Position numbers and translations under genes: made by a program
Source: Candidatus Desulforudis audaxviator MP104C
GTDB lineage: Bacteria > Bacillota > Desulfotomaculia > Desulfotomaculales > Desulforudaceae
DNA: 64,000 nt
Reading direction: 5' to 3'
Assembly: GCF_000018425.1 (NCBI RefSeq)
Contig: NC_010424.1
Location: 2,062,501 to 2,126,500, forward strand
Shown here: positions 22,801 to 29,125 of the stretch, piece after piece
Layout: each line of letters opens with the position of its first letter
How positions within the stretch are numbered: position 1 is the stretch's first letter
Notes under the pieces: generated by a model
What the model saw: only the letters and a program-made list of their open reading frames with translations
Told to the model about the DNA's origin: nothing
Database searches by the model: none

Positions 22801-24327
22801 ATGCACCGGCGCCTGCTTGCCCTGCTGGGGCTGGGTTTCATCCTGACCGCCTTGTTCATTGTGGCCGGCCAACTCGAAGATGGCGGCAAAAAGGAGCGGC
22901 TGACCTACGCCCTGGCCCGTTACCCCGCCACCCTGGACCCAACGGCCGTTACGGACGAGTCGGGAGCCGCCGTGCTCTTGAACCTCTACGAGGGCCTCGT
23001 GCGCTTCGAACCAGGAGGCACCGGGATTGAACCCGCGCTGGCCCGGGACTGGAACGTATCACCCGACGCCCGGACTTGGACTTTTTATCTCCAGGAAGAC
23101 ATATCTTTCACCGACGGCACCCCGCTGGACGCCGCGGCGGTAAGAGACGCGGTCGAACGGCAGCTCAACCCCGAAACCGCCGGACCATACGCTTCCTTTG
23201 TATACGGGCCGGTGACGCGGATCGAAACCAAGGGCCGCCACACGGTCATTTTTCACCTGAAGCACCCGTACGCCCCGTTCATCAGGAACCTGGCAATGCT
23301 TCCGGCGGCGGTCGTCCGCCCTTCCCCCGACCACGGCCTGCCCATCGGCACCGGCCCTTTCGTCCCGTCCGCCATTGAGTCGGCCCGGATCACTCTGAAA
23401 GCCAATCCCGCTTACCGGGAAGGGCCGCCGCACCTGAAGGAAGTCCTTTTCGTAGTCATTCCCGATCCGCATGAACGGTGGCGGGCACTGGCCCAAGGCC
23501 GGGTGGACGTGGCGGAAAACACTGGGGCCGCCCTGCCGGCCACAGGACCGGATAGCCTAGTCATCGCCCGGACGCCCGGGCTGGACCTGAGTTACCTAGC
23601 ATTCTATACCAACAAAAAGCCCTTTGACAATCCCGCCGTACGGCGGGCGGCAAGCCTCGCCGTCAATCAGCAGGCCATTGTGGACTACCTCTTTCCGGAC
23701 CGGGCTGTGCCTGCTATCGGACCCCTGCCCCCCGGTACCCTGGGTCACCACCCCACCCTGGGCGCGGACGCTTACAACCTGGAGGAAGCCCGGCAGCTCC
23801 TGGACCAAGCGGGTTACAGCGGTGAGGAAATCACGCTGATCACCTACCAGGACCGGCGCCCCTACAACCCGGCGGGCGGGGAGAAACTGGCCCACCTTCT
23901 GGTTGAACAGCTCGCCCAGGCCGGTTTTAAGGTGCGGGTGGAGGCCTACCCTTGGGAGATCTGCAAGCACGCCATCCACCGCCAGGAGGGGCACGCTTTC
24001 GTCTTCGGCTGGGTCGGGGATAACGGGGACCCGGACAATTTCCTATACACCCTGCTGGCCAGCGCGCAGATCCAAACCGGCACCAACGCGGCACGCTACT
24101 CCAACCCGCATGTCGACATGCTGCTCGGCCGGGCCCAGCAGGTGACCGACGAAGCGCTGCGCGAACGCTTGTACCGCCAAGCCCAGGAGCTTATTGCCGC
24201 CGATGCTCCGTGGGTATTCCTGAACCATCGGCTCGAAACGGCGGCGCACCACCCCACGGTGAAAAATCTGGTGGTGCAGCCCACCGGGGGCGCCTATCTG
24301 GCCCAGGTGCGCAAGGACGACCAGTAA
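22801..24327 (+). CDS. peptide/oligopeptide-type ABC transporter substrate-binding protein
   Basis: A 508-residue family 5 extracellular binding protein (DppA/OppA type). It has an N-terminal signal-like helix (about residues 3-22) without a lipobox Cys, so it may stay membrane-anchored. Family features are LNLYEGLVRFEPG, LARDWNVSPDARTWTFYL, DGTPLDAAAVRDAVERQL and, later, NKKPFDNPAVRRAASLAVN. ATG at 22801 follows GGAGGTG. No permease or ATPase genes are adjacent, so its transporter is elsewhere or it works alone. Confidence 0.9.
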   Translation: MHRRLLALLGLGFILTALFIVAGQLEDGGKKERLTYALARYPATLDPTAVTDESGAAVLLNLYEGLVRFEPGGTGIEPALARDWNVSPDARTWTFYLQEDISFTDGTPLDAAAVRDAVERQLNPETAGPYASFVYGPVTRIETKGRHTVIFHLKHPYAPFIRNLAMLPAAVVRPSPDHGLPIGTGPFVPSAIESARITLKANPAYREGPPHLKEVLFVVIPDPHERWRALAQGRVDVAENTGAALPATGPDSLVIARTPGLDLSYLAFYTNKKPFDNPAVRRAASLAVNQQAIVDYLFPDRAVPAIGPLPPGTLGHHPTLGADAYNLEEARQLLDQAGYSGEEITLITYQDRRPYNPAGGEKLAHLLVEQLAQAGFKVRVEAYPWEICKHAIHRQEGHAFVFGWVGDNGDPDNFLYTLLASAQIQTGTNAARYSNPHVDMLLGRAQQVTDEALRERLYRQAQELIAADAPWVFLNHRLETAAHHPTVKNLVVQPTGGAYLAQVRKDDQ

Positions 24328-24337
24328 TGATGGGCTT

Positions 24338-24592
24338 TTAGCCCCCGCCCAGTCTCCGGCGCACCGCTTCCTCGAGCTGTTCCAGGGTGACCTGGTCACC
24401 CAGAAGTTCCCCGTCGACGGCGATGTTCGGGGGCTTGGGCAGATCCCCGCCGCCCAGCATCAAAAAGCCCTTGTAAACAGTTTCCACTTCCACCTGTTCC
24501 CCGAATCTCTCTTTGACCTGACCGGCCAAGGCCGAGAGTCCCCTTCAACGGAGACCCGCCGGCCGGTTCGAGTAGACGGTGATGCGCACCAT
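24338..24592 (-). CDS. thioredoxin-like protein with in-frame UGA (candidate selenoprotein, Sec16)
   Basis: Read through one TGA (24545-24547), this is an 84-residue thioredoxin-like protein. It begins MVRITVYSNRPAGLR, then Sec/stop at codon 16, then RGLSALAGQVKERFG, and ends with a typical beta-strand/cis-Pro region, GGDLPKPPNIAVDGELL. The UGA falls where small thioredoxin-like proteins carry a redox Cys. The ATG at 24592 has a strong AAGGAGG site. Bases 11-22 after the UGA can form CGGC-CTTG-GCCG, a possible SECIS. The same cassette has a UGA-containing selD, so selenocysteine insertion is plausible. It resembles the family I recall as SaoT; unverified. The alternative is a nonsense-mutated gene. 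Confidence 0.65.
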
Positions 24593-24662
24593 ATTGAACA
24601 CCTCCTTAAAGAAATACTCGAACGTAAAACCGATCCGGAGACCAACGACCATCCCCGGGGAG

Positions 24663-24684
24663 AAAAGGGGCCTGGCCCCTTTTT
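24663..24684 (-). terminator. terminator after the membrane iron-sulfur gene
   Basis: A near-perfect palindrome, AAAAGGGGC-CAG-GCCCCTTTT on the minus strand, lies 10 bases after the stop of the 24693-25793 gene. Its symmetry makes it potentially bidirectional. The thioredoxin-like gene downstream has its own ribosome site about 60 bases further on. Confidence 0.7.
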
Positions 24685-24692
24685 CCGGGCGT

Positions 24693-25793
24693 TTACTGGC
24701 GGAAGAAGATTCCGCGCGCCTTCCGGGCCACCACGCCGACCGCCAGGTACGTGGGGCAGAAACCGAAAAGCCCGGTGGCGAAGAAGGCCAGCCCCAAGTA
24801 GCCCCACGGCGCACCCGGGTCCAGGAAGATCAGGCCGGCCACGGTGAGCCCGCCGGCCATCCGGACCAGCCGCTCCCGCGACCCCAGGTTGTACCCGCGA
24901 ATGGTGTCCCGAATGTCGTGGATACTGAGCACCCCCTGCGGGCAAACGTTGACGCAACGGCCGCACCCCATACATTCCGTCGTGCGCAGCACCCCCTTCT
25001 CCCGGATCAGCCTCCGGACCGGCACACCCATGTCGCAGTTCTGCTCACACAGACCGCACTCCCGGCACCGGCCGACATCGGCCTTGATCTTATAGAAGCC
25101 GGCCACGTTGAGCACGCCCCAGGTGGCCGCCCAGGGACAGGCCCAGCGGCAAAAGCTGCGGTGACCGGTGAACGGGATGATTAAAAAGCTCGCGTAGTAG
25201 CCGATCAGAATCAGGTCGTACATCGTGCGGCCGAACCGTTCATAGGCGTGCACCGGGTCCACCAGCATATAGACAAAATAGGCCCACACCACCGCAAAGG
25301 GCAGCCATTTCAGGTGCCGCCAGCGCCACCAGAAGTCGCCTTTCAGGGTGGCGTCCCGGAAGGCGAAACCCACCGTTTCCCGGCTGAACACGCAGGGGCA
25401 GTTCCAGCCGCAGTCCGCGCGTTTGCCGACCAGGGCCACCATAATGAAAAGGATGAGAAAGGGCAGGGCGCCAACCATGTGGACGGCCAGGGTGAACTCG
25501 GCCTCGGTGCCGTCGAGAAGCGGCATGCGCGGGTAAAATATCGGGATGAAGACCCAGTACAGGAAAAACAGCCCCACCATCACCTTGACCCGCAGCCGCT
25601 GGTAGGCGTCGCGCTCGGTCCGCAGCCGCCAGACGGCGAAGGCCGGAATCAGGTAAAGCTCCGGACTGCCGTTCAGTTTCACCACCGACCCGCCCACTTC
25701 GACATAAATGGGATACAGGAAGCTCGAGGCCAGCCAGGCCAGGGCAATCGCGCTCGCTATTTTCGCCGGGGTGATTCTTTTCGCAGAACCCAT
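24693..25793 (-). CDS. NapH-like membrane 4Fe-4S protein with DUF2892-like C-terminus
   Basis: A 366-residue membrane protein with about six helices. Cys-rich loops CGWNCPCVFSRET (about 124) and FCRWACPWAA (about 212) match NapH/RdxA-type proteins. A cytosolic two-cluster ferredoxin region follows: CRECGLCEQNCDMG and CMGCGRCVNVCPQG. The end, ATGLFGFCPTYLAVGV, looks like the DUF2892 membrane motif. The ATG at 25793 is chosen because the 31 upstream codons lack features. It probably passes electrons across or along the membrane for the neighbouring radical SAM/methyltransferase system. It resembles the family I recall as TsoY; here it contains only Cys. Confidence 0.8.
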   Translation of the reverse strand: MGSAKRITPAKIASAIALAWLASSFLYPIYVEVGGSVVKLNGSPELYLIPAFAVWRLRTERDAYQRLRVKVMVGLFFLYWVFIPIFYPRMPLLDGTEAEFTLAVHMVGALPFLILFIMVALVGKRADCGWNCPCVFSRETVGFAFRDATLKGDFWWRWRHLKWLPFAVVWAYFVYMLVDPVHAYERFGRTMYDLILIGYYASFLIIPFTGHRSFCRWACPWAATWGVLNVAGFYKIKADVGRCRECGLCEQNCDMGVPVRRLIREKGVLRTTECMGCGRCVNVCPQGVLSIHDIRDTIRGYNLGSRERLVRMAGGLTVAGLIFLDPGAPWGYLGLAFFATGLFGFCPTYLAVGVVARKARGIFFRQ

Positions 25794-25901
25794 CTTTTCA
25801 GCGCCCCCTTGGACCACAGGTTTAGCGGAAATGCCGTCTGTTGGAATACTAGGCGCTTTGCCGCAAACATCTACGCAAAATGGCAAACTGGTTGAGCCAG
25901 G

Positions 25902-26687
25902 TTAGGGCTTGCTCCCAGTGATGAGGGTATAGCCGAGCACCCCGTCACGCACCAGTTCCTCGGCCTGGTGCAGGAGCACCTTGCCGCGCTTGAGGTCCAG
26001 GCCTTTCAAGTCGAGCTTGCCCACGGCCTGAGCCAGTTCGGCGAGGAGCAGCCGCTGCCGGATTTGGCCGGCCAGCGCCAGCAGCGCCTCCGGATGGTCG
26101 GTTGCGGTCAGGCCGGTGAACCCCGCATGGGCCAGGACCGCCCGGTATCCGTCAACAGTGAGGGCGTCGGCGATGCAGGCCGCCCGGAAGAGCAGCCCCT
26201 TCATCTCTTCGGGCAGCCGGTCCCGGTCCACCACCATATCGGTCAACCCGACACGCCCCCCGGCGGCAAGCACCCGGAACATCTCCCGGGCCGCCGTTTC
26301 CTTGTCCGGGAAGAGACAGAAAGAGCACTCGGAAATCACCGCGGTGCAGGCACCGTCTTCCAGGGGCAGGCGCTCGGCGTCCCCCTGCCGGAATTCCACC
26401 CGGTCGGTCAGCCCCGCGTCGGCCGCGTGCCGGCGCGCCTGTTCCAGGTTCTCCGCGCCCAGGTCGACCCCCAACACCCGGCAGCCGAAAACGCCCGCCA
26501 GAAACACGGCGCTGGTGCCCGTGCCGCAGGCCGCGTCGAGCAAAAAGTCTCCCGGCCCCAGGGCCAGGGCCTCTCCCAGCCGCCGGGTCAGTTCGAGCCC
26601 CCCGGGATGAAAGCTCCGGCCCAGGAGCAGGCGGACGACATCGTTCTGGTAGAAATCAACGCAGGCACACTTTAAGTCCTCATTCAC
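25902..26687 (-). CDS. class I SAM-dependent methyltransferase of the selenoprotein-linked cassette
   Basis: A 261-residue methyltransferase. The SAM-binding motif I is LLDAACGTGTSAVFLAGVFG near residue 48, followed by GVDLGAENLEQARR and the acidic loop QGDAERLPLEDG. The region ISECSFCLFPDKETAAREMF carries two Cys where metalloid methyltransferases have substrate thiols, and CACVDFYQ at the N-terminus adds two more. A GTG start four bases after the radical SAM gene suggests coupling. The context suggests methylation of a metal(loid) or of a product of the radical SAM enzyme; the substrate is unknown. Confidence 0.82.
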   Translation of the reverse strand: MNEDLKCACVDFYQNDVVRLLLGRSFHPGGLELTRRLGEALALGPGDFLLDAACGTGTSAVFLAGVFGCRVLGVDLGAENLEQARRHAADAGLTDRVEFRQGDAERLPLEDGACTAVISECSFCLFPDKETAAREMFRVLAAGGRVGLTDMVVDRDRLPEEMKGLLFRAACIADALTVDGYRAVLAHAGFTGLTATDHPEALLALAGQIRQRLLLAELAQAVGKLDLKGLDLKRGKVLLHQAEELVRDGVLGYTLITGSKP

Positions 26688-26690
26688 CGG

Positions 26691-28052
26691 TCAACTACCT
26701 CGCTTCAACACGTTGTACACACAAAAGGGCACAAGCCCACCGTCCGGTAAGAGCTGGTGAACGCAACATTTCCGCGCCCGTTTGAGTTCGAAATTGTGGA
26801 CGTCCATAAAGGCGTGCACCCCGATCATGGTGATCTGGTCGCGGAGCGCTTCAAGGTCCTCCAGCGAAATCCCACAGCAGGAGGCCAGGCTTTTCAGGGA
26901 TTCGTCCGTCCCGGGCACGGCCCCGGCCGACCAAAGTTCTTCCAGGGAAGTCTGGGTCAGGGGAGAAAGGTCAGTGATGATCCGGTTCTTGAAGTAGTCC
27001 AGGTAGTCGTCCACGTTCACCAGCCGGGGCGCCGTGGTCAGCCGCTCGCCCCCGGTATACACGTAGGTAAGGGCGAAACAGGTCGGGTAGGGGCAAGGCA
27101 CCGGCACGAAATCCGCCCGGGTCAGTTCGCCTTCGGTCTGTCGCTCCAACCCTTTCAGAATGTCGGGAAGAGTGATCCGGTTCAGCGGGTCGAACTCCAG
27201 CCGGTGGCGCCCGATGTGGGCCACCGGCTGGAACATCAGGCCGCGGATGCGGGGGTTTTGCAGCGCGAAGCGGACGAGGTCGCCCAGCTCACCGTCGTTC
27301 ACCCCCGGGACCACGGTGGCCGAAAGGACAATGGGAATCCCGCAGTCACTGAGGCGCTCCACGGCCAAGAGCTTGTCGGCCAGAAGATCGGCCCCCCGGA
27401 TCCGCCGGTAGACAACCGCCGACAGCCCGTCGAACTGCAGGTACACCGACGGCCGGAACTCGGCCAGGCGCGCCAGGAAGGCATCGTCCCGGGCGATGCG
27501 CAGGCCGTTGGTGTTCAGTTGCACCAGCCGGATGCCCTTGGCCCGGGCCAGCGCCAACAGCTCGAAGAGTTCCGGGTGCAGCGTCGGCTCGCCCCCGCTG
27601 AACTGGAGCACGTCCGGGTTCCCCTCGCACTCCCGGTACACATCCAGCAGCCGCGCCACCTGCTCCGGGGCCAGAAAGCCGGAACCCCCGGCGTCGGCCA
27701 GGCAGGCCGGGCACTTCAGGTCGCACGCCTGTGTCACGTCGATGATCGCCAGGCAGGTGTGCTGCTGGTGGTCCGGGCAAAGGCCGCAGTCGTGCGGGCA
27801 GCCGCGCTCAACCCGGGTGGAAAAGCGGCGGGGGAGGGTGCCGGGCTTATTGTATTTCAGGCTGTACCGGTAGTGATCGATATCACTCGAGACCAGCGCC
27901 TCGGAATGGCCGTGCTCGGGGCACCACTTGCGCAGGTAAACCCGCCGGCCCCGGACCAGCACGTCGGCGTGTACCAGGCCCCGGCACTCCGGGCAAAGGC
28001 TCTGACCTACTTCCAAAAAGATGCTGTCACGTTCGCGGCTGCCGCCGGCCAT
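26691..28052 (-). CDS. radical SAM protein with N-terminal zinc-ribbon-like region
   Basis: 453 residues from the ATG at 28052 (GGAGG seven bases upstream). The radical SAM cluster motif is CDLKCPACLADAGGSG near residue 112, preceded by CPHDCGLCPDH. An N-terminal Cys region reads SLCPECRGLV and WCPEHGHSE. FSGGEPTLHPELFEL is the SAM-binding GGE motif. The C-terminus has more cysteines (SCCGISLED, KCCVHQLLPDGGLVPFC). The layout is like radical SAM methylases of the MJ0619/tetraether-synthase-like group and like TrsS, which can be a selenoprotein; here Cys is used. It lies 23 bases after selD and four before the methyltransferase gene. Confidence 0.85.
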   Translation of the reverse strand: MAGGSRERDSIFLEVGQSLCPECRGLVHADVLVRGRRVYLRKWCPEHGHSEALVSSDIDHYRYSLKYNKPGTLPRRFSTRVERGCPHDCGLCPDHQQHTCLAIIDVTQACDLKCPACLADAGGSGFLAPEQVARLLDVYRECEGNPDVLQFSGGEPTLHPELFELLALARAKGIRLVQLNTNGLRIARDDAFLARLAEFRPSVYLQFDGLSAVVYRRIRGADLLADKLLAVERLSDCGIPIVLSATVVPGVNDGELGDLVRFALQNPRIRGLMFQPVAHIGRHRLEFDPLNRITLPDILKGLERQTEGELTRADFVPVPCPYPTCFALTYVYTGGERLTTAPRLVNVDDYLDYFKNRIITDLSPLTQTSLEELWSAGAVPGTDESLKSLASCCGISLEDLEALRDQITMIGVHAFMDVHNFELKRARKCCVHQLLPDGGLVPFCVYNVLKRGS

Positions 28053-28075: not shown

Positions 28076-29125
28076 CTAGGAAAACACATTGAACGAGCTT
28101 GGATCTCGTACCAGTCTGCCGATCACGGCGGACTCCTCGGCCCCTGCAGCACCGCGCAAGGCGGCCAGGAGCGCATCCAGTTTGTCCGGCGCGACCGCCA
28201 TGAGCAGCCCGCCGGAAGTCTGGGGATCGCACAAGACCAGCCGCATTTCCTCGGAAAGCGAAGGCTCCCACCGGTAGCGCTCGCGGGCGTAACGATAGTT
28301 GCCGTGGGCCCCGCCGGCCACCGCCCCGGCCCGTGCCAGTTCCAAAGCACCGGGAATCACCGGGACCCGGGAGGCCTCCACCTCGACCCCCACCCCGCTC
28401 GCCGCCGCCATTTCCCACAGGTGCCCCAAAAGCCCGAATCCGGTCACGTCCGTACAGGCGTGCACGCCGATCCGCAGCATGACTTCGGCCGCCTCCCGGT
28501 TAAGCGCGGTCATGTACCGCACCGCCAGGGTCTCCAGGCCGGCATCCACCAGCCGCCGGTCGATGCCGGTGGCGATAACACCGGTGCCCAGCGGCTTGGT
28601 GAGGACCAGGACATCACCGGCCCGCGCACCGCTTCGGAACACGAGGCGTTCGGGGTGAGCGAACCCCGTAACACATAAGCCGTACTTGGGGGCATGATCG
28701 GTGATGGAATGGCCCCCGGCGATGGATACACCGGCCTCGGCCGCCTTGTCCGCACCACCGCGCAAAATGTCTTCCAGGATCCCAAGGGGAATGCTCTGGT
28801 TGGGGAACCCCACGATATTGAGAGCGAACACCGGACGGCCGCCCATCGCGTAGATGTCGCTTAAGGCGTTGGCGGCCGCCACCTGCCCGAAGGTGTACGG
28901 ATCATCGACCACCGGAGTGATGTAGTCCACGGTCTGGATCAGGGCCAAGTCGGGGCCGACCCGGTACACGGCGGCGTCATCCTCCCGGCCGGCCAGGATG
29001 CGGGGATCAACCAGGGGCGGCAGGCAGCGCAGCAAGTGCGCCAGATCGGAATGCCCGATCTTGCACGCTCAGCCCGAACCCGGAGAGTAGGAAGTAAGCC
29101 GGAAGTTTGGGTAATTCCCGGTCAT
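28076..29125 (-). CDS. selD: selenide, water dikinase SelD, selenocysteine-containing
   Basis: SelD makes selenophosphate from selenide and ATP, the selenium donor for Sec-tRNA. The true start is the ATG at 29125 (GGAGAAC site). It gives 349 residues if the TGA at 29069-29071 is read as selenocysteine, Sec19, in the motif GSG-U-ACKIG, where other SelDs carry the catalytic Cys or Sec followed by the essential Lys. A perfect 7-bp hairpin (29043-29061) begins seven bases after the UGA, as expected for a bacterial SECIS. Body motifs include VDYITPVVDDPYTFGQVAAA, GGHSITD and DVTGFGLLGH. Without readthrough only a truncated protein would be made. Confidence 0.93.
29043..29061 (-). promoter_or_regulatory. 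SECIS-like hairpin in selD
   Basis: On the minus strand AGATCGG-GCATT-CCGATCT, a perfect 7-bp stem with a five-base loop starting with G, lies seven bases downstream of the in-frame UGA. Position and size fit SelB-binding elements. Confidence 0.75.

Follow-up and report, generated by a model that had tools for sequence, protein, structure and literature searches.

The minus strand of the window, a stretch of 64,000 bases within the single contig of 2,349,476 bases of Candidatus Desulforudis audaxviator MP104C, carries a gene whose product is very probably a small protein of thioredoxin shape, with selenocysteine (Sec) as its only redox residue. By sequence comparison, this gene belongs to a sister group of the selenoprotein family TsoC that is often linked to selD. 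The proposal of a selenoprotein, first made in an earlier note on this DNA, is supported by a conserved UGA, four homologues with Cys in its place, a full Sec machinery, a conserved stem and purifying selection after the UGA; these features, like the frame and the neighborhood, are read from sequence. The features of the locus are listed in the table.

Table. Features of the TsoC-like locus (positions in the window)
Feature	Position	Strand	Remarks
TsoC-like selenoprotein gene (predicted)	24338..24592	-	84 aa, Sec at codon 16 (NRPAGLRU)
UGA codon, predicted to be read as Sec	24545..24547	-	homologues: TGA 23/27, Cys 4/27
Ribosome-binding region TTAAGGAGGTG	24593..24622	-	precedes ATG
SECIS-like stem-loop	24512..24530	-	5' arm 24530-24525, loop 24524-24518, 3' arm 24517-24512; covariation and codon-shuffle test
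NapH-like membrane 4Fe-4S protein, YgaP-like TM domain	24693..25886	-	start may be further in; neighbor kept
DVU_1556-like methyltransferase	25902..26687	-	NF045667 128 bits, cut-off 155; neighbor kept
TrsS/Tes-like radical SAM protein	26691..28031	-	NF045646 363 bits, cut-off 490; NF045702 317 bits; query region; start codon uncertain, open frame extends at most to 28418
selD	28076..29125	-	own in-frame UGA at 29069-29071 (GSGUACKI)

Reading frame and homologues

Positions 24592-24338 of the minus strand form one 84-residue frame (MVRITVYSNRPAGLR*RGLSALAGQ...RRRLGGG*) whose sole internal stop is the TGA at 24547-24545, codon 16, just as the earlier note had described, and the strong ribosome site that it mentioned is also there, ahead of the ATG. 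The active-site motif is G13-L-R-U16, within NRPAGLRU; the first position of the CxxC motif, given previously as Leu, is in fact Gly13, and Sec16 takes the second. With the UGA read as Sec the 84-residue product has no Cys, so that Sec is indeed the sole redox residue of the window copy; in the two relatives nearest to it, a Cys follows the Sec site at a distance of four residues. Under the standard code the same DNA yields, as had been anticipated, a stub of 15 residues and an ORF of 63 aa starting at TTG; this ORF had also been called unrelated, but it belongs to the same frame, of which it forms the C-terminal portion.

We searched 150 relatives and obtained 25 matches in 17 genomes, 22 of them with TGA at the same motif codon (including the window gene) and one with Cys (L025); two matches were set aside, L026 being a TsoX, in which the UGA lies three codons before the site, and L034 starting past the site. 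A profile search of the order's 113 genomes returned 29 matches in 22 genomes, adding L083 (TGA at the site), three genes with Cys at the site (L039, L086, L087) and three further TsoX (L085, L088, L091). Duplicates were counted once (L084 is the L026 gene and L040 the L025 gene; L035, the one locus found by a single-protein scan of genome contigs, was counted as the L012 gene). A phylum-wide search gave matches in 6 of 398 genomes. After leaving out the four TsoX and one partial match, 27 TsoC-like matches covering the site were retained (window gene included), comprising 23 with TGA, 4 with Cys and none with any other codon, so that the refutation named in the earlier note, a sense codon other than Cys at the site, is not borne out in this set. 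Because the same codon recurs in separately assembled genomes, in the 22 of 25 matches above as well as in L083, the conserved TGA is not a matter of chance.

Compared with the two nearest relatives, the part after the TGA has dN of 0.062 and 0.065 and dS of 0.378 (dN/dS ~0.17), and the 15 codons before it show zero non-synonymous changes. These figures bear on the alternative that the TGA is a true stop, the locus being a pseudogene, a sequencing error or the source of a 63-residue protein made from the internal TTG, which has on its side the stub and the TTG ORF that the standard code gives. We consider this hardly credible: 22 further matches, from genomes assembled separately, have the TGA as well, four others have Cys, selection is purifying before as well as after the TGA, and the Sec machinery is complete and the stem conserved, as described below. 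Sec at codon 16 is thus well supported by the sequence comparisons. The genome has a second TsoC-like gene in a different neighborhood (L032 1498-1710, positions 1303694-1303903 of the genome). It likewise has TGA at the site, and its end is unlike that of its relatives, perhaps through a frameshift.

Selenocysteine machinery and SECIS-like stem

SelA, SelB, SelD and tRNA-Sec are all encoded in the genome. The adjacent selA and selB genes (636.8 and 344.6 bits) both score over cut-off, as does tRNA-Sec (74.5 bits, anticodon TCA), which ARAGORN also finds. Like the selD genes of 10 out of 10 related loci, that of the window contains an in-frame UGA, and a plain ORF list starts it at an internal TTG.

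To look at the region after the UGA, the 22 TGA genes from the search of 150 relatives were aligned, gap-free over 55 nt, and RNAalifold, with no structure supplied, returned a conserved stem at nt 18-23/31-36 (counted from the U of the UGA) with two-sided changes in 3 of its 6 pairs. Redrawing synonymous codons per locus from its own usage (1000 trials) gave a mean of 87.3 paired cells (sd 3.9, max 98) against 123 of 132 observed in the 22 genes, a figure that overstates independence since the stem was derived from the same sequences and these are related. The summed folding energy of the 22 genes was -185.2 versus -117.2 (sd 10.5) after shuffling. When the stem partners were slid by +1, the covariation score was similar (0.253 versus 0.240 unslid), but only 59% of cells paired, versus 86%. 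The window copy taken alone forms 5 of the 6 pairs, which is not significant (shuffle P 0.23). Cys forms need no SECIS, and the four found here pair in only 10 of 24 stem cells. An Rfam scan of 23800-25200 gave no family near its gathering score.

The short stem first suggested as the SECIS (CGGC/GCCG, nt 14-17/22-25 from the U of the UGA) was rejected: it pairs in 51% of cells with no two-sided change, and it is the different, overlapping stem at nt 18-23/31-36 that is conserved.

Predicted fold

A profile of 21 members matches thioredoxin 1nho (E=0.0066) and 1fo5 (E=0.24), with Gly13 aligned on the first Cys of 1nho and Sec16 on the second. The AlphaFold2 model, built on two sequences only, has a pLDDT of 79.8 and a pTM of 0.72, with lower pLDDT at residues 11-20 (mean 62) and 41-50 (mean 57); its predicted order is beta-alpha-beta ... 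beta-beta-alpha with a Pro ahead of the third strand, the arrangement of a thioredoxin fold. Foldseek and VIA-align both rank thioredoxins first (E 4.7e-04 and Z 10.1), the best structural match being a designed thioredoxin (Z 10.1, rmsd 2.7, 81 aligned). Pfam gave no family for the window protein or the five relatives scanned. Profile match, model and structure comparison agree with the thioredoxin-like character originally noticed, and prediction supports a thioredoxin-like fold. The archaeal-type small thioredoxins (1nho, 1fo5) share fold and length as well as the profile match, but have CxxC where the window protein has GxxU. Selenoprotein W-like proteins (2p0g, 2obk) have a similar small thioredoxin-fold shape (Z ~8), although no sequence match between them and the window protein was found; their motif is given as CxxU in the parts of PMC13188914 available to us.

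Relation to TsoC and TsoX

TsoC (NF045708), the NEPxGxxU selenoprotein, is the nearest named family, at 32.3 bits (E 7.2e-08), which does not reach the curated cut-off of 45. Twelve further members scanned against the same profile (L032, L025 and ten others) score between 14.4 and 33.2 bits, all below 45. Over the order and over the class the tally was the same, 2 of 113 genomes matched and none over the cut-off, in searches that read through TGA, for which reason these scores may be understated. Common to TsoC and the window protein are the small size, N-P-G-xx-U, a Sec at GxxU and a full-length profile match; unlike TsoC, the window protein is sub-cut-off and has NRPAG in place of NEPxG, so that the GxxU part of the TsoC motif is present and the NEP before the Gly is not. 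TsoX, the HSGNPxU selenoprotein (NF045809), is a distant relative picked up by the same profile, and differs in its UxxC motif, with Sec first and Cys second, and in forming a separate clade (100/100).

The gene might be an ordinary TsoC that serves whatever TsoA and TsoB do, its adjacency to selD being incidental. The best named family is indeed TsoC, at the E-value given above, and the motif is the GxxU listed for TsoC in the parts of PMC13188914 at hand, where it is attributed to Haft & Tolstoy 2025. Against this, the cut-off is reached by none of the 13 members scanned and in none of the 113 genomes, TsoA has no match in the genome (a search run without a positive control), and TsoB has only a fragmentary, sub-cut-off match elsewhere (L036, genome positions 983182-983448, with one in-frame TGA; 42.6 bits, cut-off 805), the pairing of TsoA and TsoB with TsoC being taken from their names. 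The window gene moreover lies in a TrsS-like cluster together with selD, and selD or TrsS-like neighbors recur. We therefore regard an ordinary TsoC as unlikely.

The claim that this is a new selenoprotein holds only in part, the published TsoC family (GxxU) being a sister. The literature searched, including the available parts of PMC13188914 and PMC12013277, yielded no report of the window gene, which the original TsoC paper may describe; in the list of section 7 of PMC13188914, a review available in part, we noticed no selD-linked thioredoxin-like family.

Gene cluster and neighborhoods

The minus-strand order is selD, TrsS/Tes-like radical SAM gene, DVU_1556-like methyltransferase, NapH-like ferredoxin, then the TsoC-like gene. 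We compared 20 neighborhoods and found this full order in six genomes (the window, L056, L057, L058, L060 and L061), the order without selD in a seventh (L059), and the radical SAM gene alone in L062. Five loci (L070 to L074) lack the radical SAM gene but have a TsoC-like gene adjacent or close to selD, and the Cys form L075 has no selD. Seven of the 20 neighborhoods (L063 to L069) belong to a second paralogue group that forms its own clade (96/98) and has no selD near, so that the selD link is not general; L032, the second copy of the same genome, falls in this group (as L069). Among seven further stretches, L100 repeats the selD locus of G086 and adds a TsoX gene, and L094-L099 have no selD. 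The cluster-linked members are not joined as one clade in the tree, and need not all descend from one cluster-linked ancestor.

Several loci have features of their own. TsoX, selD and a TsoC-like gene lie within 3.5 kb in L100 (G086), with another TsoC-like gene ~12 kb off; in L072 (G115), three TsoC-like genes, of which one is only partial, lie next to selD within 3 kb; L070 has a weakly NapH-like match between the TsoC-like gene and selD; L074 appears decayed. The radical SAM protein of the window (26691-28031, minus) belongs to a clade that scores 336-386 bits with the TrsS model (cut-off 490) and is separate from TrsS proper; a Zn-ribbon domain (PF23545) lies at the N-terminus of the protein.

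A terminator-like site (24658-24635, minus) and ~100 bases separate the NapH-like gene from the TsoC-like gene, which may for this reason not share the same transcript; two terminator-like sites were found in the region, versus a mean of 0.9 in shuffles.

The arrangement could mean that the TrsS-like radical SAM/methyltransferase pathway is the only redox partner of the protein, with selD supplying Sec for the cluster. The series radical SAM, methyltransferase, NapH-like and TsoC-like gene is kept in 7 of the 8 genomes that have this radical SAM clade (among 100 relatives), and a methyltransferase also adjoins TrsS proper in 12 of 12 loci; the five loci with a TsoC-like gene next to or near selD and no radical SAM gene argue the other way, and we hold this reading to be plausible but somewhat doubtful.

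Proposed mechanism and implications

We consider it highly probable that the gene product is a selenoprotein of 84 residues with a thioredoxin fold, its Sec directed by SelB, tRNA-Sec and the stem, and that it would act like a one-thiol carrier with SelD and/or the radical SAM set as partners. Under the direction of the stem-loop, whose apical loop would begin ~20 nt after the UGA, SelB and tRNA-Sec would put selenocysteine at codon 16. Sec would replace the second Cys of CxxC and Gly the first, and the lone Sec, in a protein without Cys, may then work like a one-thiol carrier, its selenol reacting with a disulfide, persulfide or selenium of the partner, which would resolve the mixed bond. From the gene cluster, the likeliest partners would be SelD and/or the radical SAM, methyltransferase and NapH-like ferredoxin set.

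A more specific role, which we think quite improbable, is that the selD-linked branch is a dedicated selenium carrier: its lone Sec, on a thioredoxin fold, would bind reduced selenium in the form of a perselenide or selenosulfide and pass this on to SelD at the latter's Sec loop, in which case a selenoprotein would feed the synthesis of selenoproteins. According to section 7 of PMC13188914, as available to us, it is incompletely elucidated how SelD obtains its selenium in the cell, and the selD link makes one candidate selenium donor for SelD testable. Genes of this sort get lost in routine annotation; the present one adds a TsoC-sister group beyond the current NCBIfam cut-off and ties a predicted lone-Sec thioredoxin-fold protein to selD.
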